A stretch of DNA of 45,797 nucleotides. Origin: Candidatus Mediterraneibacter intestinavium (lineage in GTDB: Bacteria; Bacillota; Clostridia; Lachnospirales; Lachnospiraceae). Numbering within the stretch: the stretch's first letter is position 1; every line of letters begins with the position of its first letter. The translations under genes and the position numbers were made by a program. Shown in pieces: positions 2,187-32,465 of the stretch. The notes beneath the pieces were generated by a model. That model had not been told where the DNA came from. It did not search any database and was given only the letters and a program-made list of their open reading frames with translations. Where the stretch lies: contig DWXK01000071.1 in the NCBI GenBank assembly GCA_019119205.1, positions 1 to 45,797 on the forward strand, in the 5' to 3' direction.

Positions 2187-2452
2187 GAACTGGCGGGGGA
2201 CGTCCGCCGGTGGGGGATGTGCTGTATTGTCTGCGGACACGCTTTCGCTCGGAAAACGAGCGCAGCGGACACGTAGGAGCGCAAAGGACGCGCTCCAAGT
2301 GCCGGCGTCGTTTTAACGGTCCTTAGCCAACACAGCGCATCCCCTCCGGCTGGTGCGTCCCTCCGGCAGTTTTGGGTGAAGAGTCCGGGAGGGGCGCGTC
2401 CCGTGGGCGGGACGCTGCTCCCTGGGAGTCGTGAGCAGGAGTGAAAAATTGT
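2187..2452. other. GC-rich structured intergenic stretch after dnaJ
   Basis: No credible gene is seen in this stretch between convergent dnaJ and the CyuA-type gene. It contains several short stems: CGCTCG/CGAGCG (2246-2262) and GGAGCG/CGCTCC (2276-2296). The word GCGGACACG occurs twice (2234-2242 and 2265-2273). The base composition is higher in GC than neighbouring spacers. It could be a degenerate repeat element or a structured 3' UTR; I do not recognise an RNA family. Confidence 0.4.
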
Positions 2453-2478
2453 GGGACAGGCATGCCTGTCCCTGTTTT
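2453..2478. terminator. Bidirectional terminator between dnaJ and cyuA
   Basis: A perfect 20-bp palindrome (GGGACAGGCATGCCTGTCCC, 2453-2472) is followed by TGTTTT on the plus strand. On the minus strand it is followed by ACAATTTTTC. It lies immediately after the stop codon of the minus-strand gene, so it most clearly terminates that transcript and may also stop read-through from dnaJ. Confidence 0.75.
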
Positions 2479-2494
2479 ATGTTGTGAGTGAGGA

Positions 2495-3793
2495 TCAACA
2501 GTCTTCGTTTACCATCAGTTTGATGATCTCTTCATTGGTCTCTCTCATGCCGTCTTTTCCAAGCCGGCCGATCCCGCGGATGGTGGATTCTACGTCTTTC
2601 ATGACGATCCCGTCGCCGCCTTTGAATTCCTGATCGTTTTTGTACATGTTATAACCGAGGATGCCGGCGTCCACGGAGAAGGCGATCTTTGCTGCGCAGG
2701 ATGCTTTTGCCCCGTCGCAGACGATGCCGGAGACGATGGCGAGTGCATTGACCACTGTGTGGATGGCAGCCTGATAATCGCCGCCGCAGAGGTATACGAT
2801 CCCGGCTCCGGCTCCTGCGCCTGCGCTCACGGCGCCGCAGTAGGCGGAGAGGGTGCCGATCCCGGTCTTTTCGTGGATCGCGACCAGATTGGAGAGTACG
2901 AGTGCACGGTAGAGTTCTTCCTTGCTGGAGTTCAGTTCCTTTGCGTATTCGATCAGAGGAACGGAACAGGTGATGCCCTGGTTTCCGCTGCCGGAATTGA
3001 TGATCACGGGAAGTTCGCAGCCGTTCATCCTTGCATCGGATCCGGCAGCGGCTTTTGCTTTCGCCCGGACTGTGATGTCGTTTCCGTAGGAATGGAGGAG
3101 GACGCTCCCGATATTTGCTCCGTAGTCGCCAAGGAGCCCTTCCTCGGCGATGGCGTTGTTATAGCGGATCTGGCGGTCCAGAAGCTTTGAGACGTCAGCA
3201 GTGTCCACTGTATTGGCGAAATCCCAGATGTCTTCCATATTCAGAAGCCCCCGGTCTGCACGGTTTGCCTGTTCTTCTGAGTCGGCTTCCTCCGATCTGA
3301 GTTCTTTTTCAAGAAGGATATTTCCGTTCTTTTCGATCAGCACGATATTCGTGTGGTAGTCGGCGATGCGCACTTTCGCGTAAGAATCCCCTTTATATTC
3401 TGTGACGATGATATCAAATACATGTCCGTAGTCTATGAGTTCGACCTCGATCGGAGCATTTTCAAGGAAAGCTTTGATCTTATCCACCTGATCTTCGGCG
3501 ACCTGGGAGATGACCTCAAGTTCTTTGTCAGGATCTCCCGCGATGATCCCGGCGGCTGCAGCGGCGGGGATGCCTTTGAGATGATTTGTGTTCGGGACGA
3601 TCACGCTTTTCACATTTTTGATGATGCTCCCGCTGACCTGCAGCACGACCCGGTCCGGCACATCGCCCAGCACTTCACGGGCTCTGGCGGCAGCGTATGC
3701 GAGGGCGATGGGCTCGGTACACCCGAAGGCGGGGACCAGTTCTTCCTCGAGGATCTTGATGTAGGTTTTATATCGAATGTCGTCTTTTTTCAT
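2495..3793 (-). CDS. cyuA: L-cysteine desulfidase / serine dehydratase-like protein (CyuA/YhaM family)
   Basis: A 432-residue cytosolic protein of the CyuA (formerly YhaM, UPF0597) family. Characterised members are Fe-S enzymes that break L-cysteine into pyruvate, ammonia and sulfide; the fold is that of Fe-S L-serine dehydratases. Visible family marks are VPAFGCTEPIALAYAAA (Cys25), the Gly/Asn-rich NSGSGNQGI segment, and late cysteines in YCGAVSAGAGAG, YLCGGDY, IVCDGAK and SCAAKIA. These are candidate cluster ligands. It ends at a strong palindromic terminator. It is the last gene of the minus-strand run, 42 bases after the S41-like gene, so it may share its transcript. The choice of substrate (cysteine or serine) is inferred from the family. 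Confidence 0.85.
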   Translation of the reverse strand: MKKDDIRYKTYIKILEEELVPAFGCTEPIALAYAAARAREVLGDVPDRVVLQVSGSIIKNVKSVIVPNTNHLKGIPAAAAAGIIAGDPDKELEVISQVAEDQVDKIKAFLENAPIEVELIDYGHVFDIIVTEYKGDSYAKVRIADYHTNIVLIEKNGNILLEKELRSEEADSEEQANRADRGLLNMEDIWDFANTVDTADVSKLLDRQIRYNNAIAEEGLLGDYGANIGSVLLHSYGNDITVRAKAKAAAGSDARMNGCELPVIINSGSGNQGITCSVPLIEYAKELNSSKEELYRALVLSNLVAIHEKTGIGTLSAYCGAVSAGAGAGAGIVYLCGGDYQAAIHTVVNALAIVSGIVCDGAKASCAAKIAFSVDAGILGYNMYKNDQEFKGGDGIVMKDVESTIRGIGRLGKDGMRETNEEIIKLMVNEDC

Positions 3794-5621: not shown

Positions 5622-7733
5622 CTATTGTCTGACTCCCACGAATACGATCACAGAGCGTTCGCCCAGCAGCAGGTTTTTCTGCGCTTCCGGCATCTCTGCT
5701 TCGGCAAATGTCTGCTGTTTCGGGTCGCCTGTGTTGACAGCGATCCGCCAGCAGTACCCTTCGGGAAGGTCGGGCAGAGACATCTCCGCTGCATTCCAGT
5801 GGGCGTTGACTGCAACATAGACAAGGTCCTCCAGATTATTTTCTTCATCATATCCTGAGAAGAGGACGCAGGAGACATATGCGTTTTCCGGCGCTTCCGG
5901 TTCCCAGGGAGCGAGACCGTGGATGCTCATGGACGGGAATCCGATATAGCTGGGCTCCAGATCCTTTCGGATGGCAGGGTGCGCCATGCGGAACGCGATC
6001 ATATAGCGGAAGAACTCGAACATATCCTGGTTCTCGTCCAGCAGGCTCCAGTCCAGCCAGGAGATCTCGTTGTCCTGGCAGTACGGATTGTTGTTTCCGA
6101 ACCGGGTATCGCAGAACTCGTCTCCGGATAGGAACATGGGCGTTCCCCGGCTGCACATGAGCACAGCGCAGGCGTTCATCATCATCTTCCTGCGCAGCGC
6201 GAGGATCTCAGGATCGTCGGTATCCCCCTCTACGCCGCAGTTCCAGCTGTTATTGTTGTCAAATCCGTCTGTATTGTCCCAGCCGTTTGCCTCATTGTGC
6301 TTCTGGTTGTAGCTGTACAGGTCGTTCAGTGTGAAGCCGTCGTGGCAGGTCAGGAAGTTGACCGACGCGTTGCCGCCCCGGTAGACCGGGTCATAGAGGT
6401 CCGGAGAGCCGGTCATCCTCTGTGCGGCGATGCCGGACATCCCGGCGTCCCCTTTCAGGAAACAGCGCATATCGTCCCGGTAGCGGCCGTTCCACTCGGC
6501 CCATCTCTTCCAGGACGGGAAGGATCCTACCTGATAGAGACCGCCCGCATCCCATGCTTCCGCGATCAGCTTGACGTTGCCCAGGATGGGGTCGAAGGCA
6601 AGGCTTCGAAGGAGCGGGGGCTGGTTTAAGGGGGTGCCGTTCTCGCTCCGTCCCAGGATGGAGGCAAGGTCGAAACGGAAACCGTCTACCCGGTAGTCCG
6701 TCACCCAGTAGCGCAGACAGTCCAGGATCAGCTCCTGTACGACAGGATGATTGCAGTTCAGCGTGTTCCCGCACCCGCTGAAGTTGTAATACGTTCCGTC
6801 CGGGGTCAGCATATAGTAGATGTTGTTGTCAAAGCCCTTAAAACAGAAAGAAGGACCCATCTCGTTCCCTTCAGCGGTATGGTTGAACACCACATCCAGG
6901 ATGACGTCGATCTCATTGTCGTGTAGGGCTTTGATCAGATGCTTTAATTCCATCCCCTCCCGATTGTACTCCACACCGGAGGCATAGCTTGTGTTTGGCG
7001 CGAAGAAACAGACCGGATTATATCCCCAGTAATCCAGGAGTTCATTTTCGTCGATCATGCGGACGTCTCTCATCTCGTCAAACTCGAAGACCGGCATGAG
7101 CTCCACTGCATTGACTCCCAGCTTTTTGAGATAGGGGATCTTCTCCTCCAGCCCCCGGAACGTGCCCGGACAGGCAACGTTCGAGGTGGGGGATTTGGTG
7201 AACCCGCGGACATGGAGTTCGTAGATGACCAGATCTTCCATGGGAATGGGCTCGCTCCGCTCCAGCCCCCAGTCAAAGTTGTTCTGTACGACCCGGGCGC
7301 GGTAGCTGTGCTGTGTGTTATTCTTGCATCCCCACTGGCTCTGACCGGTGACTGCGCGGGCGTAAGGATCGAGCAGGATCTTTCTCTTGTCGAAGCGGAG
7401 CCCTTTTTTTTCATCATAGGGACCGTCCAGCCGGTAGGCGTACTCGAACTCCTCCACGTCCAGACCGAACACGATCATGGAGTAGACGAAGCCGATCTTA
7501 TAGTTATCCGGAAATTTCAGGGCGGCGAAAGGCTCCTCCGCTTCCCGGTGGAAGAGGAGCAGTTCGCAGGACGTCGCCCCGTGGGACTGGATGGTAAAGT
7601 TCACCCCGCCCGGAATGATGGTGGCTCCGAAGAAACGGAAAAATCCGGGGCGTACCTGGAATCCGGAGATATTATCCAGCGGTTTCAGCTGGCGGCCGGG
7701 AACGAGCACCAGATCAGATGTATGCAGTGACAT
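5622..7733 (-). CDS. glgX: Glycogen debranching enzyme (GlgX/isoamylase type, GH13)
   Basis: 703 residues, normal for GlgX/TreX enzymes, which hydrolyse alpha-1,6 branch links of glycogen in the cytosol. The N-terminal CBM48-like domain includes VNFTIQSHGATSCELLLFH. The GH13 motifs are all present: DVVFNH (about residue 281), GFRFDLAS with the nucleophile Asp (about 351), AEAWDAGG with the acid/base Glu (about 391), and FLTCHDG (about 461). The isoamylase-type stretch LFLSGDEFCDTRFGNNN is also present. Its ATG lies only 6 bases after the response-regulator stop, and its ribosome site lies inside that gene, so the two are translationally linked. No other glycogen genes are in view, which makes its place behind a sensor system unusual. 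Confidence 0.93.
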   Translation of the reverse strand: MSLHTSDLVLVPGRQLKPLDNISGFQVRPGFFRFFGATIIPGGVNFTIQSHGATSCELLLFHREAEEPFAALKFPDNYKIGFVYSMIVFGLDVEEFEYAYRLDGPYDEKKGLRFDKRKILLDPYARAVTGQSQWGCKNNTQHSYRARVVQNNFDWGLERSEPIPMEDLVIYELHVRGFTKSPTSNVACPGTFRGLEEKIPYLKKLGVNAVELMPVFEFDEMRDVRMIDENELLDYWGYNPVCFFAPNTSYASGVEYNREGMELKHLIKALHDNEIDVILDVVFNHTAEGNEMGPSFCFKGFDNNIYYMLTPDGTYYNFSGCGNTLNCNHPVVQELILDCLRYWVTDYRVDGFRFDLASILGRSENGTPLNQPPLLRSLAFDPILGNVKLIAEAWDAGGLYQVGSFPSWKRWAEWNGRYRDDMRCFLKGDAGMSGIAAQRMTGSPDLYDPVYRGGNASVNFLTCHDGFTLNDLYSYNQKHNEANGWDNTDGFDNNNSWNCGVEGDTDDPEILALRRKMMMNACAVLMCSRGTPMFLSGDEFCDTRFGNNNPYCQDNEISWLDWSLLDENQDMFEFFRYMIAFRMAHPAIRKDLEPSYIGFPSMSIHGLAPWEPEAPENAYVSCVLFSGYDEENNLEDLVYVAVNAHWNAAEMSLPDLPEGYCWRIAVNTGDPKQQTFAEAEMPEAQKNLLLGERSVIVFVGVRQ

Positions 7734-25464: not shown

Positions 25465-25502
25465 AAAAATGGATGCAGATCAGTTTTCTGCATCCATTTT
25501 TT
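25465..25502. terminator. Bidirectional terminator between ldh and the DtxR-type gene
   Basis: AAAAATGGATGCAG (25465-25478) pairs with CTGCATCCATTTTT (25488-25501), with A and T runs on both sides. The stop codon of the minus-strand regulator gene lies inside it. Confidence 0.9.
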
Positions 25503-25866
25503 CGTGAATATGTTTTTTGATCGCCTCAAAACTCTCTGTGCTGATCACGTGCTCGATACGGCAGGCATCGTCGACAGCGGTCTGGGGATCGACTCCGAGA
25601 CGCTGAAGCCAGGAGGAGAGCAGGGTATGCCGTTCATAGATACGGTCTGCGATCTCCCTTCCGGACTCTGTCAGCGTGATATATCCTTCCGGAGATACGA
25701 CGATATGATGGCTCTCTCTCAGCTTTTTCATCGCTACACTGACGCTTGACTTTTTAAAGTTAAGTTCTGTTGCGATATCTACAGAACGTACTACCGGATG
25801 CGTCTGACTCAGCATGAGGATCGTCTCAAGATAATTTTCAGCAGATTCATTTACATGCATAGGCAT
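25480..25866 (-). CDS. DtxR/MntR-family metal-dependent repressor, short form
   Basis: 128 residues, about the MntR length, without the SH3-like C-terminal domain of DtxR. A winged helix-turn-helix is at the start (VRSVDIATELNFKKSSVSVAMKKLRESHHIVV), then the dimerisation/metal domain (ERHTLLSSWLQRLGVDPQTA, DACRIEHVIS). In the key metal site the pattern is Cys-x-x-Glu-His, as in iron-type DtxR/IdeR; MntR has Glu instead of Cys. The N-terminal ligand position reads Asn (SAENYLE) where DtxR has Met and MntR has Asp. It diverges from feoA, whose promoter holds a palindrome, so control of the iron locus is likely. RBS is GAGGTGAG. Confidence 0.9.
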   Translation of the reverse strand: MPMHVNESAENYLETILMLSQTHPVVRSVDIATELNFKKSSVSVAMKKLRESHHIVVSPEGYITLTESGREIADRIYERHTLLSSWLQRLGVDPQTAVDDACRIEHVISTESFEAIKKHIHEKMDAEN

Positions 25867-25942: not shown

Positions 25943-25988
25943 ATGATTTCTGTACAGTCAAAAAAAGGAAAAAATCATCAAAAAAGGA

Positions 25989-26019
25989 TTGACAAACGCA
26001 TGGTGTTAGTTTAAACTTA
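25989..26019 (+). promoter_or_regulatory. feo promoter with palindromic operator
   Basis: A perfect TTGACA -35 (25989-25994), a 17-base spacer and TAAACT -10 (26012-26017) are overlapped by TTAGTTTAAACTTA (26006-26019). The core AGTTTAAACT is a perfect 10-bp palindrome. A dyad over the -10 is the expected position for a metal-dependent DtxR-type repressor, and the gene for one lies next door. Confidence 0.7.
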
Positions 26020-26097
26020 CATTCGTTAGATGGCGAGAATATCCAGGGGTGCGAAGGCACATCCCGGATGTCACTTTGATGAGAGGATTGGTTGAAA

Positions 26098-26310
26098 ATG
26101 ACTTTAATGGATGCCAGAGAAGGCGAAGAATATATTGTCAAAGACATTGTGACTGAAGATGAGGAATTAGAAGCGTTCCTGTTTTCACTGGGGTGCTACA
26201 GCGGTGAGCCGATCACCGTGGTTTCCCGTGTAAGGGGAGGCTGTGTGGTCTCCATCAAGGATGGAAGATATAATATCGATACTGATCTAGCGAGAGCTAT
26301 TTCAATATAA
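26098..26310 (+). CDS. feoA: Ferrous iron transport protein FeoA
   Basis: 70 residues from the ATG at 26098; an in-frame TTG at 26092 is better spaced from GAGAGG and would add two residues. The sequence is a typical SH3-like FeoA: MTLMDAREGEEYIVKDI, LFSLGCYSGEPITVVSRVRGGCVVSIKDGRYNIDTDLARAI. FeoA is a small cytosolic partner of FeoB, needed for ferrous iron uptake and thought to act on its G domain. It is the first gene of the metal locus, right after the palindrome-overlapped promoter. A terminator-like stem separates it from feoB. Confidence 0.95.
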   Translation: MTLMDAREGEEYIVKDIVTEDEELEAFLFSLGCYSGEPITVVSRVRGGCVVSIKDGRYNIDTDLARAISI

Positions 26311-26320
26311 TAAAAGACGA

Positions 26321-26352
26321 AAAAAATAGTGACTCAGTCTGCTATTTTTTTT
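26321..26352 (+). terminator. Terminator/attenuator between feoA and feoB
   Basis: AAAAAATAG (26321-26329) pairs with CTATTTTTT (from 26342), with GACTCAGTC pairing inside, and ends in an eight-T run. Because feoB follows 48 bases later with no strong promoter, this probably lowers feoB output relative to feoA or can be regulated. Confidence 0.65.
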
Positions 26353-26361
26353 GCAAAGGAG

Positions 26362-26375
26362 TTAGTTGATGCTAA
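26362..26375 (+). promoter_or_regulatory. Second DtxR-like dyad, before feoB
   Basis: TTAGTTGATGCTAA has perfect TTAG/CTAA arms, similar to the TTAG half of the feoA operator. It sits 25 bases before the feoB start, after the terminator-like stem, and could be a second repressor site. Confidence 0.4.
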
Positions 26376-26400
26376 TTCAAATAAAGGAGGAGATTTTTAA

Positions 26401-28398
26401 ATGAGAATTGCTTTTGCAGGGAATCCGAACAGTGGAAAGACAACCATGTACAATGCGCTCACGGGAAGAAATGAGCGCGTCGGAAACTGGGCCGGTGTCA
26501 CGGTGGAACGAAAGGAGAGCCTTATAAAAAAGGCGTATTACAGCGGGAGTGAGGAACTTGTCGCTGTGGACCTTCCGGGGGCGTATTCCATGTCGCCGTT
26601 TACTTCGGAAGAGAGTATCACCAGCAGTTATGTAAAAAACGAGCATCCGGATGCGATCATCAACATTGTGGATGCGACAAACTTAAGCCGCAGCCTTTTT
26701 TTTACCACACAGCTCCTGGAACTGGGAGTACCGGTAGTGGTAGCTCTGAACAAGAGTGATATCACAGAAAAGAAGCAGACAAAGATCGATGAAAAGCTCT
26801 TGTCTGAGAGACTGGGCTGTCCGGTCGTAAAGACAGTATCCACATCTTCTGGACATGAGGGGCTGAGGGAGGCGGTTGAAGCAGCGGTCTCTTTGAAAGG
26901 AACCGGGCAGAAAGCTCCTTATGTACAGGCTGATATCGACCTGCAGGATAAAAGTGCGGTTGAGGCCGCGGACAGAAAGCGGTTTGAGTTTGTCAATGGT
27001 ATCGTAAAAAAGGTGGAGCAGAGAAAAGTCTTTACAAAAGACAAGAATGCACAGGATAAGATTGACGCTGTCATTACTCATAAGATCGTCGGTATCCCGA
27101 TCTTTGCGGTTGTGATCTTTCTTGTATTCTACATATCCCAGACAACGCTCGGAACCTGGATCGCAGACTGGCTGGTCGGCTGGATCGAGACGTTCCAGGG
27201 CTGGGTCGGCGGCCTGATGGAAAACGCGAATCCGCTGCTGTATGCGCTGCTGGTTGACGGTATCATCGGCGGTGTCGGTGCGGTTGTGGGCTTCCTTCCT
27301 CTTGTCATGGTGATGTATTTCCTTATCGCCCTTCTGGAGGACTGTGGCTATATGGCACGTGCAACGGTGGTACTCGATCCGATCTTTAAGAGAGTTGGAC
27401 TTTCCGGGAAGTCGGTCATTCCGATGGTCATAGGTACAGGATGTGCGATCCCGGGGGTTATGGCTTCCCGTACGATCCGCAATGAAAGGGAACGCAGGAC
27501 GACAGCGATGCTCACGCCGTTTATGCCCTGTGGTGCGAAACTTCCGGTGATCGCTCTGTTTGCGGGGGCATTCTTCGCAAATGCATGGTGGGTATCCGCC
27601 ACTATGTATCTTGTAGGTATCGTGCTTGTCCTTCTTGGCGCACTCCTTGTAAAGAGGATCACAGGCCAGAAATACAGGAAATCTTTCTTTATCATTGAAC
27701 TTCCGGAATATAAGATCCCGAGCCTGAAAAGAGCGTGTGTGTCCATGCTCGAACGTGGGAAGGCGTATATCGTAAAGGCCGGGACGATCATCCTGGTGTG
27801 CAACACGGTCGTACAGATCATGCAGAGCTTCAACTGGCAGTTCCAGGTTGTGGAAGAAGGCGCGGAGGGCACTTCGATCCTGGCGGGCATCGCTCATCCG
27901 TTTGCGATCCTGTTTATCCCGCTCGGATTTGGTGTATGGCAGCTTGCTGCGGCAGCGATCACAGGCTTTATCGCAAAAGAAAATGTGGTGGGTACACTGG
28001 CAGTTGTATATGGCATCACCAATCTGATCGATACAGAAGAACTGGCGCTGGTAGGCAGTGGGAATGAAGTTGCGACTGTTATGGGACTCACAAAAGCGGC
28101 AGCACTTGCATATCTTATGTTTAACCTCTATACACCGCCCTGTTTCGCGGCTCTTGGGGCGATGAACTCTGAGATGAAGAGTGGAAAGTGGCTGTTTGGC
28201 GGAATCTGCCTCCAGCTGGCAACCGGTTATACAGTTGCATTCTTTGTATACCAGATCGGGACTCTGATCACGACAGGATCTCTTGGAACAGCATTTGTCC
28301 CGGGATTGATCGCGGTCGTTGTATTCGCTGCTATCATCATATGGAGGATACGCAAGTCCGATCAGGAGTTTGCGGCAGAATACAGTCTGCATGCATAA
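26401..28398 (+). CDS. feoB: Ferrous iron transporter FeoB
   Basis: 665 residues, normal for Firmicute FeoB. The N-terminal GTP-binding domain has G1 GNPNSGKTT (7-15), a G2-region Thr in WAGVTVE, G3 DLPGAYSM and G4 NKSD (about 117). A helical spacer domain follows to about residue 225. The C-terminal part has about ten membrane segments with the two Gate repeats (VGFLPLVMVMYFLIALLEDCGYMAR; CGAKLPVIALFAGAFF) and IGTGCAIPGVM. It imports ferrous iron across the cell membrane. The start has AAAGGAGGAG. Cysteines in LEDCGYMAR and MPCGAK match metal-path positions in the family. Next genes are tandem Cys-rich/HMA proteins. Confidence 0.97.
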   Translation: MRIAFAGNPNSGKTTMYNALTGRNERVGNWAGVTVERKESLIKKAYYSGSEELVAVDLPGAYSMSPFTSEESITSSYVKNEHPDAIINIVDATNLSRSLFFTTQLLELGVPVVVALNKSDITEKKQTKIDEKLLSERLGCPVVKTVSTSSGHEGLREAVEAAVSLKGTGQKAPYVQADIDLQDKSAVEAADRKRFEFVNGIVKKVEQRKVFTKDKNAQDKIDAVITHKIVGIPIFAVVIFLVFYISQTTLGTWIADWLVGWIETFQGWVGGLMENANPLLYALLVDGIIGGVGAVVGFLPLVMVMYFLIALLEDCGYMARATVVLDPIFKRVGLSGKSVIPMVIGTGCAIPGVMASRTIRNERERRTTAMLTPFMPCGAKLPVIALFAGAFFANAWWVSATMYLVGIVLVLLGALLVKRITGQKYRKSFFIIELPEYKIPSLKRACVSMLERGKAYIVKAGTIILVCNTVVQIMQSFNWQFQVVEEGAEGTSILAGIAHPFAILFIPLGFGVWQLAAAAITGFIAKENVVGTLAVVYGITNLIDTEELALVGSGNEVATVMGLTKAAALAYLMFNLYTPPCFAALGAMNSEMKSGKWLFGGICLQLATGYTVAFFVYQIGTLITTGSLGTAFVPGLIAVVVFAAIIIWRIRKSDQEFAAEYSLHA

Positions 28399-28419
28399 TC
28401 AATAAAGAGAATGATCAGC

Positions 28420-28448
28420 GGTGGACAAAGGGAAATACTTTGTCCACC
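28420..28448 (+). other. Intercistronic hairpin after feoB
   Basis: GGTGGACAAAG (28420-28430) pairs perfectly with CTTTGTCCACC (28438-28448) around a 7-base loop. No T-run follows, so it looks like a stabiliser or processing site separating feoB from the downstream genes in one transcript. Confidence 0.5.
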
Positions 28449-28480
28449 ACTTGGCGTTAGATAAGAAAGGATGAGTTTTC

Positions 28481-28855
28481 ATGGCAAATGTGATCTCAGT
28501 CATTATTCTCGCAGTTTTAATAGGCGGAGCAGCCGCATATATCGTGAGATCAAAAAGAAACGGTGTGAAGTGCATCGGCTGTCCGGCGGGAGGAAACTGT
28601 CCCGGCGCGGGAAAAGTGCCGAAGAAGAAACTGGATGGCCCGGTCATAGGGAAAAAAACGATGGAGATCTCGGGGATGAACTGCGCGCACTGCGCAGAGG
28701 ATGTAACACAGGCGCTCAATGGGATCGATGGCATCAGGGCTGAGGTCAGCCTTTCGAAGGGAAGGGCCAAGATCGCATATGACAGGGAAGTTGGGGATGA
28801 CATCCTGAGAAACGCAGTGGAAAAACGGGGATATGAGGTGACCGGCATATCCTGA
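28481..28855 (+). CDS. FeoB-associated Cys-rich membrane protein fused to an HMA domain
   Basis: 124 residues. One N-terminal membrane segment (about 3-22) is followed by the Cys motif KCIGCPAGGNC (C31, C34, C40), the mark of FeoB-associated Cys-rich membrane proteins. After a basic linker (KKKLDGPVIGK) comes a heavy-metal-associated domain with GMNCAHC (C68, C71) and the usual beta-alpha-beta-beta-alpha-beta length. Known FeoB-associated proteins generally consist of the first part only, about 50-70 residues, so the fusion is notable. It could receive iron (or copper) at the membrane and hand it on. The next gene is a diverged copy. It lies 82 bases after feoB. Confidence 0.88.
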   Translation: MANVISVIILAVLIGGAAAYIVRSKRNGVKCIGCPAGGNCPGAGKVPKKKLDGPVIGKKTMEISGMNCAHCAEDVTQALNGIDGIRAEVSLSKGRAKIAYDREVGDDILRNAVEKRGYEVTGIS

Positions 28856-28887
28856 GCATGATTCAATAAAATGAAAGAAGGATCGTT

Positions 28888-29262
28888 ATGGTTAATGTGA
28901 TCATCATATTAATTCTTGTCGTGGTGCTTATCTTTGCAGTAAAAAGTTCGATCAAACACTTTAAAGGCGAAGGAGGATGCTGCGGAGGCGGCTCGGGAAC
29001 TGTCAAGACAAAAAAGCCAAAGAAAAAGAAGCTGGATGGTCCCGTGGTGGGGAAGCGGATCATAGAGATATCCGGAATGCACTGTCAGAACTGTGTCAAC
29101 AGTGTGACGAGAGCCCTGAACGGGATTGACGGCGTTTCCGCAAAAGTAAGCCTGCATGGGAACAGGGCAGAAGTGTCGCTGGACCGTATGGTTGATGAAA
29201 ATGAACTGAAGCGGGCGGTGGAGGAAGCCGGGTTCCGGGTCACAGACATAAAAGCCGGATAA
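28888..29262 (+). CDS. Membrane-anchored HMA protein, tandem paralogue
   Basis: 124 residues, the same length and layout as the preceding protein: an N-terminal membrane segment (about 2-18), a Cys pair in a Gly-rich stretch (GGCCGGGSG, C31-C32), the shared linker KKKLDGPVVGK and an HMA domain with GMHCQNC (C66, C69). The Cys-rich part has changed from C-x2-C-x5-C to CC, which may alter its metal or make it an electron-transfer site. The two genes clearly arose by duplication. It lies 32 bases after its partner and 19 bases before the Fur-type gene, so cotranscription is likely. Metal and partner are unknown. Confidence 0.85.
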   Translation: MVNVIIILILVVVLIFAVKSSIKHFKGEGGCCGGGSGTVKTKKPKKKKLDGPVVGKRIIEISGMHCQNCVNSVTRALNGIDGVSAKVSLHGNRAEVSLDRMVDENELKRAVEEAGFRVTDIKAG

Positions 29263-29281
29263 ACAGTGACAGGAGGCTGGC

Positions 29282-29686
29282 ATGAGTAAGAAAGAACACA
29301 TCATTGAAAAATTGAAAGAAAATGGATGCCGTATCACAAAGCAGAGGCTTATGCTGATAGATATCATCCTCGAAAATGACTGCTCAAGCTGCAAAGAGAT
29401 CTTTTATAAAGCTGCAAAATGCGACGAGAAGATAGGTGTGGCTACAGTATACCGCATGATCAATGCTCTGGAAGAGATCGGGGCGATCAGCCGGAAGAAC
29501 ATGTATAAGGTTGAGTGCTCTGAGGACTGTGAGACGGAAAACGGATGCCTGATCGTCCTGGATGATGATACGACATATCACCTGTCTCCGGGAAACTGGA
29601 ATATGGTGATACAGGAAGGTCTGAAAAAGTGCGGTTATCTGAAAGGTCGGAAGGTCACGAAAATAGACGTTTTATCAAAGGAGTGA
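29282..29686 (+). CDS. Fur-family regulator without the usual metal-binding histidines
   Basis: 134 residues. The N-terminal Fur winged helix is clear (ENGCRITKQRLMLIDIIL, IGVATVYRMINALEEIGAI). The second half is not normal: the HHDHLxC metal motif and the two CxxC zinc pairs of Fur/PerR/Zur are absent, and only two His exist in the whole protein (H6, H100). Instead there is a Cys cluster, VECSEDCETENGC (C79, C83, C89), and more cysteines at 16, 34, 37 and 47. It may sense a thiol-bound metal, an Fe-S cluster or redox state. The position inside the feo/P1B operon suggests local control. RBS is CAGGAGG. Confidence 0.85.
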   Translation: MSKKEHIIEKLKENGCRITKQRLMLIDIILENDCSSCKEIFYKAAKCDEKIGVATVYRMINALEEIGAISRKNMYKVECSEDCETENGCLIVLDDDTTYHLSPGNWNMVIQEGLKKCGYLKGRKVTKIDVLSKE

Positions 29687-29692
29687 TAGGGG

Positions 29693-29773
29693 ATGAAACA
29701 GCACAGATTCTGGGCATGGGCTGCGGTCTTTTGCTTTGTGATGGTATTTTATACGGGCTACAAACACAAATAG
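29693..29773 (+). CDS. 26-residue single-span membrane microprotein
   Basis: A short gene starting ATG at 29693 and ending TAG at 29773. It encodes a Lys/His/Arg start (MKQHR), one membrane span (about residues 6-22, with WAWAAVFCFVMVFY) and a basic end (GYKHK). It begins 7 bases after the Fur-type stop, with AAGGAG nearby, and ends 14 bases before the DUF6110 gene, so it is tightly packed in the operon. Small basic-flanked spans of this kind often bind and tune larger membrane proteins; here FeoB or the P1B ATPase would be candidates. The role is inferred. Confidence 0.6.
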   Translation: MKQHRFWAWAAVFCFVMVFYTGYKHK

Positions 29774-29786
29774 GAGGTAGATTAAG

Positions 29787-30095
29787 ATGATGGACATTTT
29801 TAAATTAAAGAATCTGGGGATTTTTGCCGGAGGCGTTCTGTTCGGGACAGCAGGGATCAAGATCCTTTCCAGCCGGGATGCAAAGAAGGTATATACAAAC
29901 TGTACAGCGGCTGCTTTAAGGGCGAAAGAGTGCGTTATGAAGACAGCTGTGACGATCCAGGAAAACGCAGAGGATATCTATGCGGAGGCACAGCAGATCA
30001 ACGAAGAGAGAGCTGCCCAGGAAGCTGCGAATGTGGAGGAAGACGTGGAAGAGAATGCCGGTGCGAAAGACTTCGACGAAGTAGAAAAAGAATAG
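29787..30095 (+). CDS. DUF6110-type membrane-associated protein
   Basis: 102 residues. A Gly-rich hydrophobic N-terminal segment (NLGIFAGGVLFGTAGIKIL, about 9-27) is followed by a long charged amphipathic helix (SSRDAKKVYTNCTAAALRAKECVMKTAVTIQENAEDIYAEAQQINEER) and an acidic tail. This matches what I know as DUF6110, which is regularly found beside heavy-metal P-type ATPases in Firmicutes. Two cysteines (C39, C49) are on the helix. AGGAGG lies 9 bases before the ATG. It ends 6 bases before the ATPase start, so the two are probably translated together. The function is unknown; a subunit or chaperone of the ATPase is likely. Confidence 0.8.
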   Translation: MMDIFKLKNLGIFAGGVLFGTAGIKILSSRDAKKVYTNCTAAALRAKECVMKTAVTIQENAEDIYAEAQQINEERAAQEAANVEEDVEENAGAKDFDEVEKE

Positions 30096-30101
30096 CGGGC
30101 T

Positions 30102-32192
30102 ATGAAATTTATCATAAAGCATGAGTTAAAACGCCGTCTCCGTATCCATGTCGTCCAGGGAAGGATGACCTATGCGGAGGCGGATACTCTTTCCTGGTTT
30201 CTTGAGAAGCAGGAAAATATAACTGACGTCAAAGTATACGAGCGCACCGCAGACGTCGTTATCTGCTATACGGGAGAACGGGAAGAACTGATCATGATGC
30301 TGAGGCGGTTCCGCTACAGTGACGTAGAAGTCCCGGAAAATGTCTCGGCCAGTTCCGGGCGCAGGCTGAACGCGGAATATAAAGAAAGGCTGATCACAAG
30401 GACAGTGCTCCATTATGGGAGCAGACTGTTCCTTCCTTACCCTGTCAGAGCAGTGTATACAGTGCTGAGATCGGTGAAATATATCTGGGATGGGTTCCAA
30501 TGCCTGAGACAGGGGAAGATCGAGGTCCCCGTATTGGACGCAACTGCGATCGGTGTATCTGTCCTGAGAGGAGACATCAACACAGCGGGATCAGTCATGT
30601 TCCTTCTGGGAGTGGGTGAGATCCTGGAAGAGTGGACCCATAAGAAATCAGTGGGTGATCTGGCACGGAGCATGTCCCTGAACATTAAAAAAGTCTGGCT
30701 TGAGAGAGGGGAACAGGAAATCCTTGTGAAAGCCTCAGAAGTCCGCCCGGGAGACACGGTAGTGGTCCATATGGGAAACGTGATCCCTTTCGACGGAGAA
30801 GTGTCCGGAGGAGAAGGAATGGTCAACCAGGCGTCCCTGACAGGAGAGTCCATGCCGGTGCGGCGGACGGCCGGACAGTCAGTGTACGCAGGGACAGTGG
30901 TGGAAGAAGGAGAACTGAAGATCCTTGTAAGGGCAGTATCCGGTTCTACCAGATTTGAAAAGATCGTTACCATGATCGAGGATTCTGAAAAGTTGAAATC
31001 ATCTCTTGAGAGCAAAGCAGAGCATCTTGCTGACAGACTGGTGCCGTATACCCTTTTGGGGACAGGTATTGTGTGGCTGCTGACGCGAAATGTGACGAAG
31101 GCTCTGGCTGTGCTGATGGTGGATTTTTCATGTGCATTAAAACTCGCCATGCCGATCTCCGTCCTGTCTGCGATCCGGGAAGCCGGACAGAGAAATATCA
31201 CGGTGAAAGGCGGGAAGTTTCTGGAGGCGGTCGCCGAAGCTGACACGATCGTGTTTGATAAGACCGGGACGCTCACAAAGGCAAAGCCGACAGTGAAAGA
31301 AGTTGTAGTGTTTGCTGACTATCCGGAACAGGAATGCCTTCGGATCGCCGCCTGCCTGGAGGAGCATTTCCCGCATTCTATGGCAAAAGCTGTGGTGGAT
31401 GCGGCAAAGAAGAGGAAACTGTATCATGAAGAGATGCATTCCAAGGTAGAGTATGTGGTAGCGCATGGGATCTCCTCATACATTGAGGACAGAAAAGTCG
31501 TGATCGGGAGCAGTCATTTCGTTTTCGAGGACGAGAGGTGCTCGATCCGTCCGGAATATCAGGAGAAGTTTGACCATCTGCCGACGGAATATTCTCATCT
31601 GTATCTTGCGATAGAACAGGAACTGACAGCGGTGATCTGCATAGAGGATCCGTTGAGAGAAGAGGCAGGTACTATGGTGGAGGAACTGCGCAGAGAAGGT
31701 CTGGGGAAGATCGTTATGATGACAGGCGACAGTGTGAGGACTGCCGCGTCGATCGCCCGGAGAGTCGGTGTTGATGAATATTATGCGGAAGTACTGCCGG
31801 AGGACAAGGCAGGATACATTGAGAGGGAAAAAGCGGCAGGAAGAAAGGTCATCATGATAGGAGACGGTATCAACGATTCGCCGGCGCTCTCGGCTGCGGA
31901 TGCCGGGATCGCCATCAGTGACGGGGCAGAGATAGCAAGAGAGATCGCAGATATCACCATCGCAGCAGATGACCTGCGAGAGATCGTCACACTGAAGCGG
32001 CTCGCGGATGGAATGATGAAGCGGATCCAACGAAATTACCGGGGAATCGTGGGGATCAATTCTGTCCTGATCCTTCTGGGTGTGACAGGGGTGATCCAGC
32101 CTGCGACATCGGCTCTTCTACACAATACCTCTACCCTTATGATCAGTTTGAGGAGTATGGGAGAGATTCTTCCCGAGGAAGAAACACCTTGA
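30102..32192 (+). CDS. P1B-type metal-transporting ATPase with SCA membrane motif
   Basis: 696 residues. The N-terminal 75 form an HMA-like fold without CxxC (KRRLRIHVVQGRMTYAEAD). P-type motifs are present: TGES (about 247), phosphorylation site DKTGT (about 385), and MIGDGINDSPAL (about 586). The membrane metal site, normally CPC, reads DFSCALKLAMP (about 342), which fits the rare SCA class (called P1B-6 in the published subdivision, as I recall). The HP motif reads EHFPHSMA. SCA pumps are poorly characterised; the company of feoAB suggests ferrous iron export. Linked to DUF6110 by a 6-base gap. The last gene of the metal locus, or next to last. Confidence 0.93.
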   Translation: MKFIIKHELKRRLRIHVVQGRMTYAEADTLSWFLEKQENITDVKVYERTADVVICYTGEREELIMMLRRFRYSDVEVPENVSASSGRRLNAEYKERLITRTVLHYGSRLFLPYPVRAVYTVLRSVKYIWDGFQCLRQGKIEVPVLDATAIGVSVLRGDINTAGSVMFLLGVGEILEEWTHKKSVGDLARSMSLNIKKVWLERGEQEILVKASEVRPGDTVVVHMGNVIPFDGEVSGGEGMVNQASLTGESMPVRRTAGQSVYAGTVVEEGELKILVRAVSGSTRFEKIVTMIEDSEKLKSSLESKAEHLADRLVPYTLLGTGIVWLLTRNVTKALAVLMVDFSCALKLAMPISVLSAIREAGQRNITVKGGKFLEAVAEADTIVFDKTGTLTKAKPTVKEVVVFADYPEQECLRIAACLEEHFPHSMAKAVVDAAKKRKLYHEEMHSKVEYVVAHGISSYIEDRKVVIGSSHFVFEDERCSIRPEYQEKFDHLPTEYSHLYLAIEQELTAVICIEDPLREEAGTMVEELRREGLGKIVMMTGDSVRTAASIARRVGVDEYYAEVLPEDKAGYIEREKAAGRKVIMIGDGINDSPALSAADAGIAISDGAEIAREIADITIAADDLREIVTLKRLADGMMKRIQRNYRGIVGINSVLILLGVTGVIQPATSALLHNTSTLMISLRSMGEILPEEETP

Positions 32193-32217
32193 AAAACAGG
32201 GATATATTTGCTATTGT
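32189..32217 (+). promoter_or_regulatory. Possible promoter of the small 74-residue gene
   Basis: TTGAAA (32189-32194, overlapping the ATPase stop), a 17-base spacer and TATTGT (32212-32217). It suggests that the next gene can be transcribed apart from the metal operon. Confidence 0.45.
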
Positions 32218-32240
32218 ATCTTTGAGGAAGGTGATGCAGT

Positions 32241-32465
32241 ATGCCATATATTCGGGGAGACTCCTGTTACATTCTGGATGAAGATAATAAGATCATCATG
32301 GCAAAAGTCGTGGGACGGAAAGGCTCAGGGTATCTTCTGGAGCGTGTCGGAATATGTGGGACACTTTTCAGAAGCGAGAAGGAGATGTTCCGAAGCGAAG
32401 ATGAGGCGGAGAGGAATAAAAAGCCGCTCCCGCCGAAGATCAAGGTCCAGCTGTCGGATTATTGA
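32241..32465 (+). CDS. Small hypothetical protein
   Basis: 74 residues; no family recognised. It has no membrane segment. The N-terminal half looks like a small beta domain (RGDSCYILDEDNKIIMAKVVGRKGSGYLLERVG), the rest is charged and ends in KIKVQLSDY. AGGAAGG precedes the ATG by about 8 bases. It follows the ATPase by 48 bases and could be read from the metal operon or from its own promoter. A terminator-like stem follows. The short CGT-like motif (ICGTLF) is the only Cys region besides C9. Coding is supported by the ribosome site and spacing. Confidence 0.65.
   Translation: MPYIRGDSCYILDEDNKIIMAKVVGRKGSGYLLERVGICGTLFRSEKEMFRSEDEAERNKKPLPPKIKVQLSDY

Follow-up and report, generated by a model that had tools for sequence, protein, structure and literature searches.

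A feoAB locus joined to a DUF6110/P1B6 ATPase pair in Candidatus Mediterraneibacter intestinavium: a candidate operon for ferrous-iron import and storage

Why should genes for ferrous-iron uptake stand in one run with genes for what looks like a metal exporter? The question is raised by a 45,797-nucleotide contig of Candidatus Mediterraneibacter intestinavium, a member of the Lachnospiraceae (DWXK01000071.1; the whole stretch is called the window here). In it, feoA and feoB are followed, on the same strand and within positions 25989 to 32465, by genes for two HMA proteins (HMA1 and HMA2), a Fur-like regulator (FurL), a membrane microprotein, a DUF6110 protein and a P1B-type ATPase. The first-pass annotation had described a composite metal-handling operon that ended in a probable exporter and that, as a system, could not be named. 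The second half can be named: judged by sequence it is the DUF6110/P1B6 pair, which is already known, and by its ATPase class it appears to resemble most the FezA/FezB module of ferrosomes, which are Fur-repressed iron-storage vesicles. We favour, with some reserve, the reading that the locus is an operon for ferrous-iron import and storage; efflux is no likelier than the pumping of iron into storage vesicles.

Gene content and recurrence of the locus

The assembly to which the window belongs, as contig 62, has 104 contigs and 2.6 Mb and is 81.6% complete. All the genes that had been listed were present on the plus strand and in the order described, with the DtxR-type gene divergent (lengths in amino acids, aa; ORF, open reading frame):

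25480-25866, minus strand: DtxR/MntR-type two-domain repressor, 128 aa (PF02742 57 bits, PF01325 46 bits)
26098-26310, plus strand: feoA, 70 aa (PF04023 49.6 bits, scanned from the TTG at 26092)
26401-28398, plus strand: feoB, 665 aa (TIGR00437 471.6 bits, above cut-off)
28481-28855, plus strand: HMA1 (PF00403 above cut-off; N-terminal PF12669 24.6 bits, cut-off 27)
28888-29262, plus strand: HMA2, a transmembrane segment, CCGGG and an HMA domain with CxxC (PF00403 above cut-off; N-terminal PF12669 22.2 bits, cut-off 27)
29282-29686, plus strand: Fur-like regulator FurL (PF01475 match on residues 13-75 only)
29693-29773, plus strand: 26-aa membrane microprotein (PF19727 E 5e-5, 23.5 bits, cut-off 27)
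29787-30095, plus strand: DUF6110 protein, FezA/PacL-like, 102 aa (PF19605 135.7 bits)
30102-32192, plus strand: P1B6-type ATPase, FezB-like, 696 aa (TIGR01525 500 bits, cut-off 346)
32241-32465: last ORF of the span, 74 aa (no Pfam match; NCBIfam match at noise level only)

The gaps between consecutive genes were also as short as had been described (6 to 90 base pairs, bp): feoA-feoB 90 bp, feoB-HMA1 82 bp, HMA1-HMA2 32 bp, HMA2-Fur-like gene 19 bp, Fur-like gene-microprotein 6 bp, microprotein-DUF6110 13 bp, DUF6110-ATPase 6 bp and ATPase-last ORF 48 bp. Both the FeoA protein and the FeoB GTPase-permease of a Feo system are encoded.

Relatives (loci and genomes carry L and G numbers) were taken from the best 80 of 321 DUF6110 loci, those nearest to the window, among which the nearest named loci are mostly Mediterraneibacter and many flanks end at contig ends (first family set); from 250 Lachnospiraceae genomes, one per genus (genus-level set); from 58 genomes of the own genus, searched for the Fur-like gene, which returned 30 loci, window included; and from 196 genomes of the wider class, own genome included, in which eight DUF6110 loci were inspected. 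DUF6110 was found in 114 of the 250 genus-level genomes. We analysed 112 places from 111 of these, leaving aside the window's own place and the weak ones in G203 and G411; flanks reached at least 9 kb on both sides at 79 places and were shorter on a side at 33.

The ATPase adjoined DUF6110 at 110 of the 112 places, and the two misses lay 152-166 bp from a contig end. FeoB was found within 10 kb of DUF6110 at 32 places, against roughly 2% expected by our estimate from two FeoB genes per 2.6-Mb own genome, which more copies elsewhere would raise; it lay 23 times upstream, seven times downstream and three times on the other strand, with L107 counted twice. The Fur-like gene stood within 10 kb at 37 places and a DtxR gene at 21. 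By genome, 67 held both the Fur-like gene and DUF6110, 47 DUF6110 only, 33 the Fur-like gene only and 103 neither (Fisher p 4e-8). Among the best 80 of 321 loci, 80 had the ATPase, 38 the Fur-like gene and 20 FeoB. Because the core and its partners recur in other genomes, the locus is more than chance.

The neighbourhood search proposed in the first-pass annotation therefore bore out the combination of import, HMA, Fur-fold and DUF6110/P1B genes in part. The DUF6110/ATPase pair held, and import genes, HMA genes and the Fur-like gene stand with it more often than chance would give; the full set did not hold across the family, since FeoB, Fur-like gene and microprotein met at 6 of the 112 genus-level places (joined by an HMA1-type protein in L147 alone) and at none of the 112 with HMA2. 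The fuller gene set is a genus-level arrangement. In the own genus, DUF6110 followed the Fur-like gene within 1.5 kb in 22 of 30 loci and not in eight (L236 being cut by a contig end); 20 of the 22 had the microprotein, all had at least one HMA gene, and 11 had both HMA genes and the microprotein. In the wider class, DUF6110 was found in 12 of 196 genomes, with the ATPase in seven of the eight loci (not L093).

The window ATPase carries DFSCALKLAMP, with the SCA motif, and near its C-terminus LLHNT, with the HN motif. It has the heavy-metal P-type core and the HN in the sixth transmembrane helix of P1B6 ATPases, the helix being numbered from the motif and not from a prediction. HN near the C-terminus also agrees with the P1B6 ATPase of ferrosome clusters, FezB reportedly belonging to that class according to the primary ferrosome papers. 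SCA was present in 78 of 81 ATPases of the first family set, window included, with no match in three. Among the 103 genus-level ATPases of at least 640 aa, 97 had SCA, four CCA and two neither, and all 103 had HN within the last 70 residues. A PDB sequence search gave copper ATPases as the best matches for the ATPase and one weak match (E 0.04) for DUF6110.

DUF6110 proteins and P1B6 ATPases are described as typical partners, with HN as the P1B6 mark (PMC9374683). In C. difficile, FezA, a membrane protein, and FezB, a transporter, are reported to be needed for ferrosomes and to be Fur-repressed (PMC12574912), and fezAB is given as CD630_05910-05920 (PMC11651100). In low iron, RNA of CD630_05910 ('ATPase') and CD630_05920 ('hypothetical') rose by log2 2.41 and 2.04 (PMC6311696, Table 1); in a fur mutant the two were up by 2.80 and 1.93, and a Fur box is marked at 05920 (PMC6311696). 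The window shares with fez clusters (C. difficile fezXAB, D. magneticus, R. palustris) a P1B6-type ATPase beside a small membrane partner, and many of its relatives share with the C. difficile cluster a Fur-type box upstream. It differs from them in its gene neighbours: the pair follows feoAB and is accompanied by two HMA genes, a Fur-like gene and the gene of a microprotein like half of DUF6219. No FezC/DUF4405 was recognised among the genes of the window locus.

Predicted operators, the Fur-like regulator and the junction of the two halves

An unsupervised palindrome search of the 300 bp upstream of the DUF6110/ATPase half (hereafter the Fez-like unit) found TTGATAAA-N-TTTATCAA in relatives of the window. 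At 14 bits or more, it was present in 46 of 112 Fez-like upstreams; 10 of the 1198 control upstreams reached this score, as did on average 0.65, and never more than three, of the 112 upstreams after dinucleotide shuffling (20 rounds). Of 49 boxes of at least 12 bits, 38 began 77-115 bp upstream of the first gene. Boxes of at least 12 bits were found in 34 of 37 loci with a Fur-like gene within 10 kb, in 14 of 31 with a Fur-like gene elsewhere in the genome and in 1 of 44 where the genome search found no such gene. When one half of the loci was used for training and the other for testing, the box was found in 33 of 37 loci near a Fur-like gene and in 14 of 75 not near one. In addition, the same box with at most two mismatches lay upstream of feoA in 10 of 28 cases, compared to 13 of 1198 controls; enrichment before both feoA and the DUF6110 unit counts in favour of the composite reading of the first-pass annotation. 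We conclude that this palindrome, which is new here, is probably the operator of the Fur-like protein. It is similar to the C. difficile Fur consensus, given as TGATAATVAWHWTCA (PMC6311696), which has AAT where the palindrome of the window's relatives has AAA. A Fur-type box, as in iron-starvation control of fez clusters, is present in most relatives with FurL nearby, and the window locus is without it (best 6.9 bits). The DtxR-type repressor was rejected as regulator of the Fez-like unit, because its presence and that of the box were not associated (Fisher p 0.81).

FurL has the winged-helix fold of Fur: all 15 Foldseek matches at E <= 0.001 were Fur, Mur or PerR, including Fur on a feoAB1 operator (TM-score about 0.4). 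The predicted structure had a mean pLDDT of 80 and a pTM of 0.50, with residues 73-85 below 50. Whole-model TM-scores to the matches were 0.37-0.44 with a root-mean-square deviation above 11, so the fold fit rests on part of the chain. The protein shares with the Fur/PerR/Mur family this winged helix, these matches and a 7-1-7 palindromic box. It differs in that canonical C-terminal metal ligands are missing from what we take to be their positions, and in having cysteines in the DNA-binding domain. In a 23-row alignment, C37 was invariant and C16 and C34 nearly so, all in the winged-helix domain; the C-terminal domain was small, without CxxC pairs, and the full dimerisation domain with His/Cys metal sites of a canonical Fur is lacking. 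Eleven of 37 Fur-like genes in the genus-level set encode 77-106 aa, little beyond the DNA-binding domain. The missing C-terminal part may reflect decay, since several Fur-like matches elsewhere continue past stop codons, or natural shortening. FurL is probably a dedicated switch protein; one might guess that it senses through its cysteines, and by analogy with C. difficile Fur it would act as a repressor. The gene was found in 49 of 58 own-genus genomes. Those of L012, L015, L016, L018, L040 and L066 encode about 88-98 aa and end after the DNA-binding domain.

Many relatives keep a promoter of their own upstream of the microprotein, and the window keeps 6 bp only, so both halves can be read there as one operon. 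In L013, the 189-bp gap between Fur-like gene and microprotein contains a terminator-like stem, a box (15.3 bits) and promoter-like sequence. In L009, L010 and L014, genes like those of a phosphotransferase system (PTS) and then a box (15.3-18.4 bits) precede the microprotein, and in L014 a promoter-like TTGACT-18-TATGAT follows the box. A break between Fur-like gene and ATPase was what the first-pass annotation had itself said would speak against its operon; such breaks occur in close relatives, and a single operon does not hold as a general system.

The next smallest gaps at this junction were 53 and 61 bp in the two sets from the family (the first family set and the genus-level set) and 32 and 50 bp in the own genus (L261, L262). 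In the own genus, the box was present in 15 of 15 loci with a 133-219-bp gap and in none of six with a gap below 100 bp, window included; in L247, with a 1021-bp gap, it was scored in the first 400 bp only. A simple scan found a terminator after the Fur-like gene in 8 of 30 own-genus loci, so terminators are not general. On the best tree, built from FeoB pieces of unequal length and with two very long branches at the root, the fused label required at least five changes, about as many as shuffled labels (5.6), and well-supported branches force only one of them. More than one such fusion is at most suggested by this tree. By eye, the PTS-like genes of L009, L010 and L014 comprise a kinase, a fructose-type PTS and a DeoR-type regulator, an apparent fructose-PTS operon that was inserted or retained (L009:4861-8689, L010:3328-7114, L014:4798-8633). 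In L100, L137 and L145, which belong to other genera, two large membrane proteins, by eye an ABC exporter-like pair, lie between Fur-like gene and microprotein.

The feo half has the following elements:

25965-25981: possible decayed Fur-like operator upstream of feoA (6.1 bits; the same site has 16.3 bits in L009, 9.6 in L013 and 3.7 in L014)
25989-26017, plus strand: feoA promoter-like TTGACA-17-TAAACT, by sequence; kept in L009, L013 and L014
26005-26020: operator-like palindrome GTTAGTTTAAACTTAC over the feoA -10 box; identical in the window, L009, L013 and L014
26362-26375: second operator-like palindrome TTAGTTGATGCTAA in the feoA-feoB gap; TTAG...CTAA kept in L009, L013 and L014
28420-28448, plus strand: stem GGTGGACAAAG/CTTTGTCCACC in the feoB-HMA1 gap; largely kept in L009, L013 and L014

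The start at 25989 that the first-pass annotation had chosen is the first base of the TTGACA hexamer, with TAAACT 17 bp on. Palindrome GTTAGTTTAAACTTAC is probably a DtxR-type operator; a GTTAGTTTAAACTAAC-like palindrome with at most three mismatches was found upstream of 18 of 28 feoA genes and in 26 of 1198 control upstreams. The palindrome at 26362-26375 (TTAG-CTAA) is related to it. The stem at 28420-28448 has no T-run and was rejected as a terminator; it is conserved, perhaps as an element of mRNA processing or stability.

Import and storage as the proposed mechanism, and other explanations

In the mechanism that we propose, FeoA and FeoB would import Fe2+. Microprotein, FezA-like DUF6110 protein and FezB-like P1B6 ATPase would make up a membrane module by which Fe2+ is pumped from the cytosol, with ferrosome-type vesicles as its most likely destination. 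The two HMA proteins could be carriers with CxxC, tethered to the membrane, that hand on metal in the vicinity of FeoB or the ATPase. Many relatives would have separate transcripts: feo under a DtxR-type operator, and the Fez-like unit with a promoter of its own, controlled through TTGATAAA-N-TTTATCAA as the predicted binding site of the Fur-like protein. In the window, import and storage genes would be read together from the feoA promoter, the Fez-like promoter and operator being missing.

Storage seems to us the likelier destiny of the pumped metal, and we think it rather unlikely that the module is an efflux platform, in which DUF6110 would gather the P1B6 ATPase into membrane platforms that rid the cell of surplus metal, like PacL1 with CtpC, and the operon would pair import with a safety valve. 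Such a platform is suggested by the relation of DUF6110 to DUF1490/PacL (PMC9374683, PMC13043812) and by the role in metal efflux that is described for PacL-type partners of related ATPases (PMC9374683). The window shares with mycobacterial PacL/CtpC platforms a small transmembrane partner of a related family (DUF1490 there, DUF6110 here) beside an HN-motif P1B ATPase. It differs in that its ATPase has SCA where CtpC has CPC, and DUF6110 is described as having no predicted metal-binding motif (PMC9374683). A bridging protein at L125:1638-1955 scored higher with DUF1490 (23.1 bits) than with DUF6110 (17.8 bits), both below cut-off. However, an exporter is usually induced by metal excess, and the C. 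difficile 05910/05920 pair is induced by lack of iron and in a fur mutant (PMC6311696). It is improbable that the module handles Mn2+, or Mn2+ and Fe2+, and not iron alone. Iron is indicated by the Fur-type boxes and by the Fez precedent, and to our knowledge CxxC HMA proteins do not typically serve manganese. On the side of manganese, the DtxR-type repressor has its best NCBIfam matches in MntR models (80.3 and 74.3 bits, below their cut-offs of 153 and 138), the best Foldseek match of FurL is a manganese uptake regulator, with Fur and PerR scoring alike, and a clade with some Firmicutes FeoB proteins holds the P. gingivalis Mn2+ transporter (PMC8749426). Mere juxtaposition, in which two unrelated operons adjoin and read-through in the window has no function, would fit the rarity of FeoB, Fur-like gene and microprotein together and the relatives whose halves are split, by eye, by PTS-like genes (L009, L010, L014) or ABC-transporter-like genes (L086, L100, L137, L145, L184). 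Against it stand the recurrence of FeoB nearby in varied orders and strands, the FurL operator upstream of feoA and the genome-wide co-occurrence of Fur-like gene and DUF6110, and we give it little credence.

Besides what speaks for efflux and for manganese, several observations weigh against import and storage or the operator on which they draw. No FeoB was found within 10 kb at 80 of the 112 DUF6110 places (flanks being short at 33 of the 112). The equation of DUF6110 with FezA is a lead, which draws on the class of the ATPase, the small membrane partner and the mode of regulation and not on alignment. The 6-bp junction is known from one draft assembly. The 1198 control upstreams come from the same contigs and precede mechanical ORFs of at least 200 aa, not curated genes; they are less AT-rich than Fez-like upstreams (0.562 vs 0.614), and the palindrome reached 14 bits in 7 of 420 AT-rich control upstreams. 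Tree-independent pairs on an ATPase tree of 105 rows were consistent with the link between operator and Fur-like gene and pointed in the right direction, but they were few and underpowered: with the gene nearby, about 4.9 agreed and about 0.4 opposed of nine (median p 0.125), and with the gene anywhere in the genome, 4.8 agreed and 0.1 opposed of 12 (median p 0.0625). Finally, the own genome holds one ferritin-family match (216-aa frame, 29.9 bits, above cut-off, G000:C46:2890-3042), so another iron store is possible.

Import and storage may be part of a wider picture, which we put forward tentatively and hold doubtful as a whole. In it, the microprotein would be an unrecognised small subunit of ferrosome-type modules in Clostridia, drawn from the wider DUF6219 family, which also occurs in ferritin and peroxide-defence loci, FurL a dedicated cysteine sensor (C16, C34, C37) that binds its own palindrome, and gut Lachnospiraceae would commonly store iron in ferrosomes. 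If the reading of import and storage is right, a ferrosome-type store is encoded by nearly half of the sampled genera (114/250) of a dominant gut family; a full-text literature search for ferrosome and Lachnospiraceae returned a single paper, apparently on diet and C. difficile. Direct experiments would have three handles here, a regulator, an operator and a microprotein, and the locus would illustrate how genes of import and of storage can be placed under a single promoter.

The small membrane proteins and neighbouring genes

The microprotein, MKQHRFWAWAAVFCFVMVFYTGYKHK, is new here and resembles half of Pfam DUF6219. It matches positions 1-25 of that family only, its first half, and is neither the two-transmembrane protein of about 69 aa nor above the curated cut-off. 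In a 27-row alignment M1, H4, W7, C14, T21, G22 and H25 were fully invariant. In 1176 pairs from 49 genes, the mean proportion of synonymous differences (pS) was 0.83 and that of non-synonymous differences (pN) 0.17; therefore it is very probably a real gene under purifying selection. It lay at most 400 bp upstream of DUF6110 in 48 of 80 loci (in L041 it stands after the ATPase instead), within 600 bp of DUF6110 at 33 of 112 genus-level places, and next to DUF6110 in two wider-class loci outside the family (L092, L093). By genome, 42 had both the microprotein (E < 1e-9) and DUF6110, in some of them on different contigs, two the microprotein only, 72 DUF6110 only and 134 neither. A literature search for DUF6219 by that name returned no publication.

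DUF6219 proper, a 69-aa tandem form with two transmembrane segments, occurs at L128:5619-5828 (minus strand; 146 bits), L130:6099-6308 and L132:5909-6118. In all three it adjoins a peroxiredoxin and a YaaA-like gene, joined in L128 and L132 by a PerR-type gene; the peroxiredoxin and PerR-type gene of L132 were scanned, and the other labels were given by eye. A lone microprotein copy adjoins a ferritin gene in L120 (around 2235-3018, minus strand). In L125 the neighbours of the bridging protein are a microprotein and a P1B-like ATPase, and the protein may connect the DUF6110 and DUF1490 (PacL) families.

HMA1 consists of a transmembrane segment and Cys-rich segment of the FeoB-associated type (KCIGCPAGGNC) fused to an HMA domain. 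It looks like a FeoB-associated Cys-rich protein to which an HMA domain was added, because its start resembles that family and a short FeoB-associated-type protein holds its place after feoB in L040 (PF12669 24.2 bits, cut-off 27), L072 and L078. The window thus shares with Firmicutes Feo systems that have a PF12669 protein the order of feoA, feoB and a small transmembrane, Cys-rich protein, and differs in the extra HMA domain and in the second transmembrane HMA protein that follows. HMA1 or its short form was found near DUF6110 at 6 of 112 places. HMA2-type genes lay between -1.5 and +3.5 kb of DUF6110 at 20 places, of which 12 had no FeoB within 10 kb; the HMA2 model matched 84 of 250 genomes (E <= 1e-20), a count that includes window HMA1 and some HMA domains of large proteins.

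The last ORF (32241-32465) was rejected as a member of the system: it is present in 4 of 80 loci (L009, L010, L013, L014) and has no family match, so nothing ties it to the other genes. Elsewhere in the own genome, a second, longer FeoB (711-aa frame) was found at G000:C4:48449-48910 (minus strand), and a Fur-family gene (C46:1763-2074) lies within 1 kb of the only ferritin-family match.

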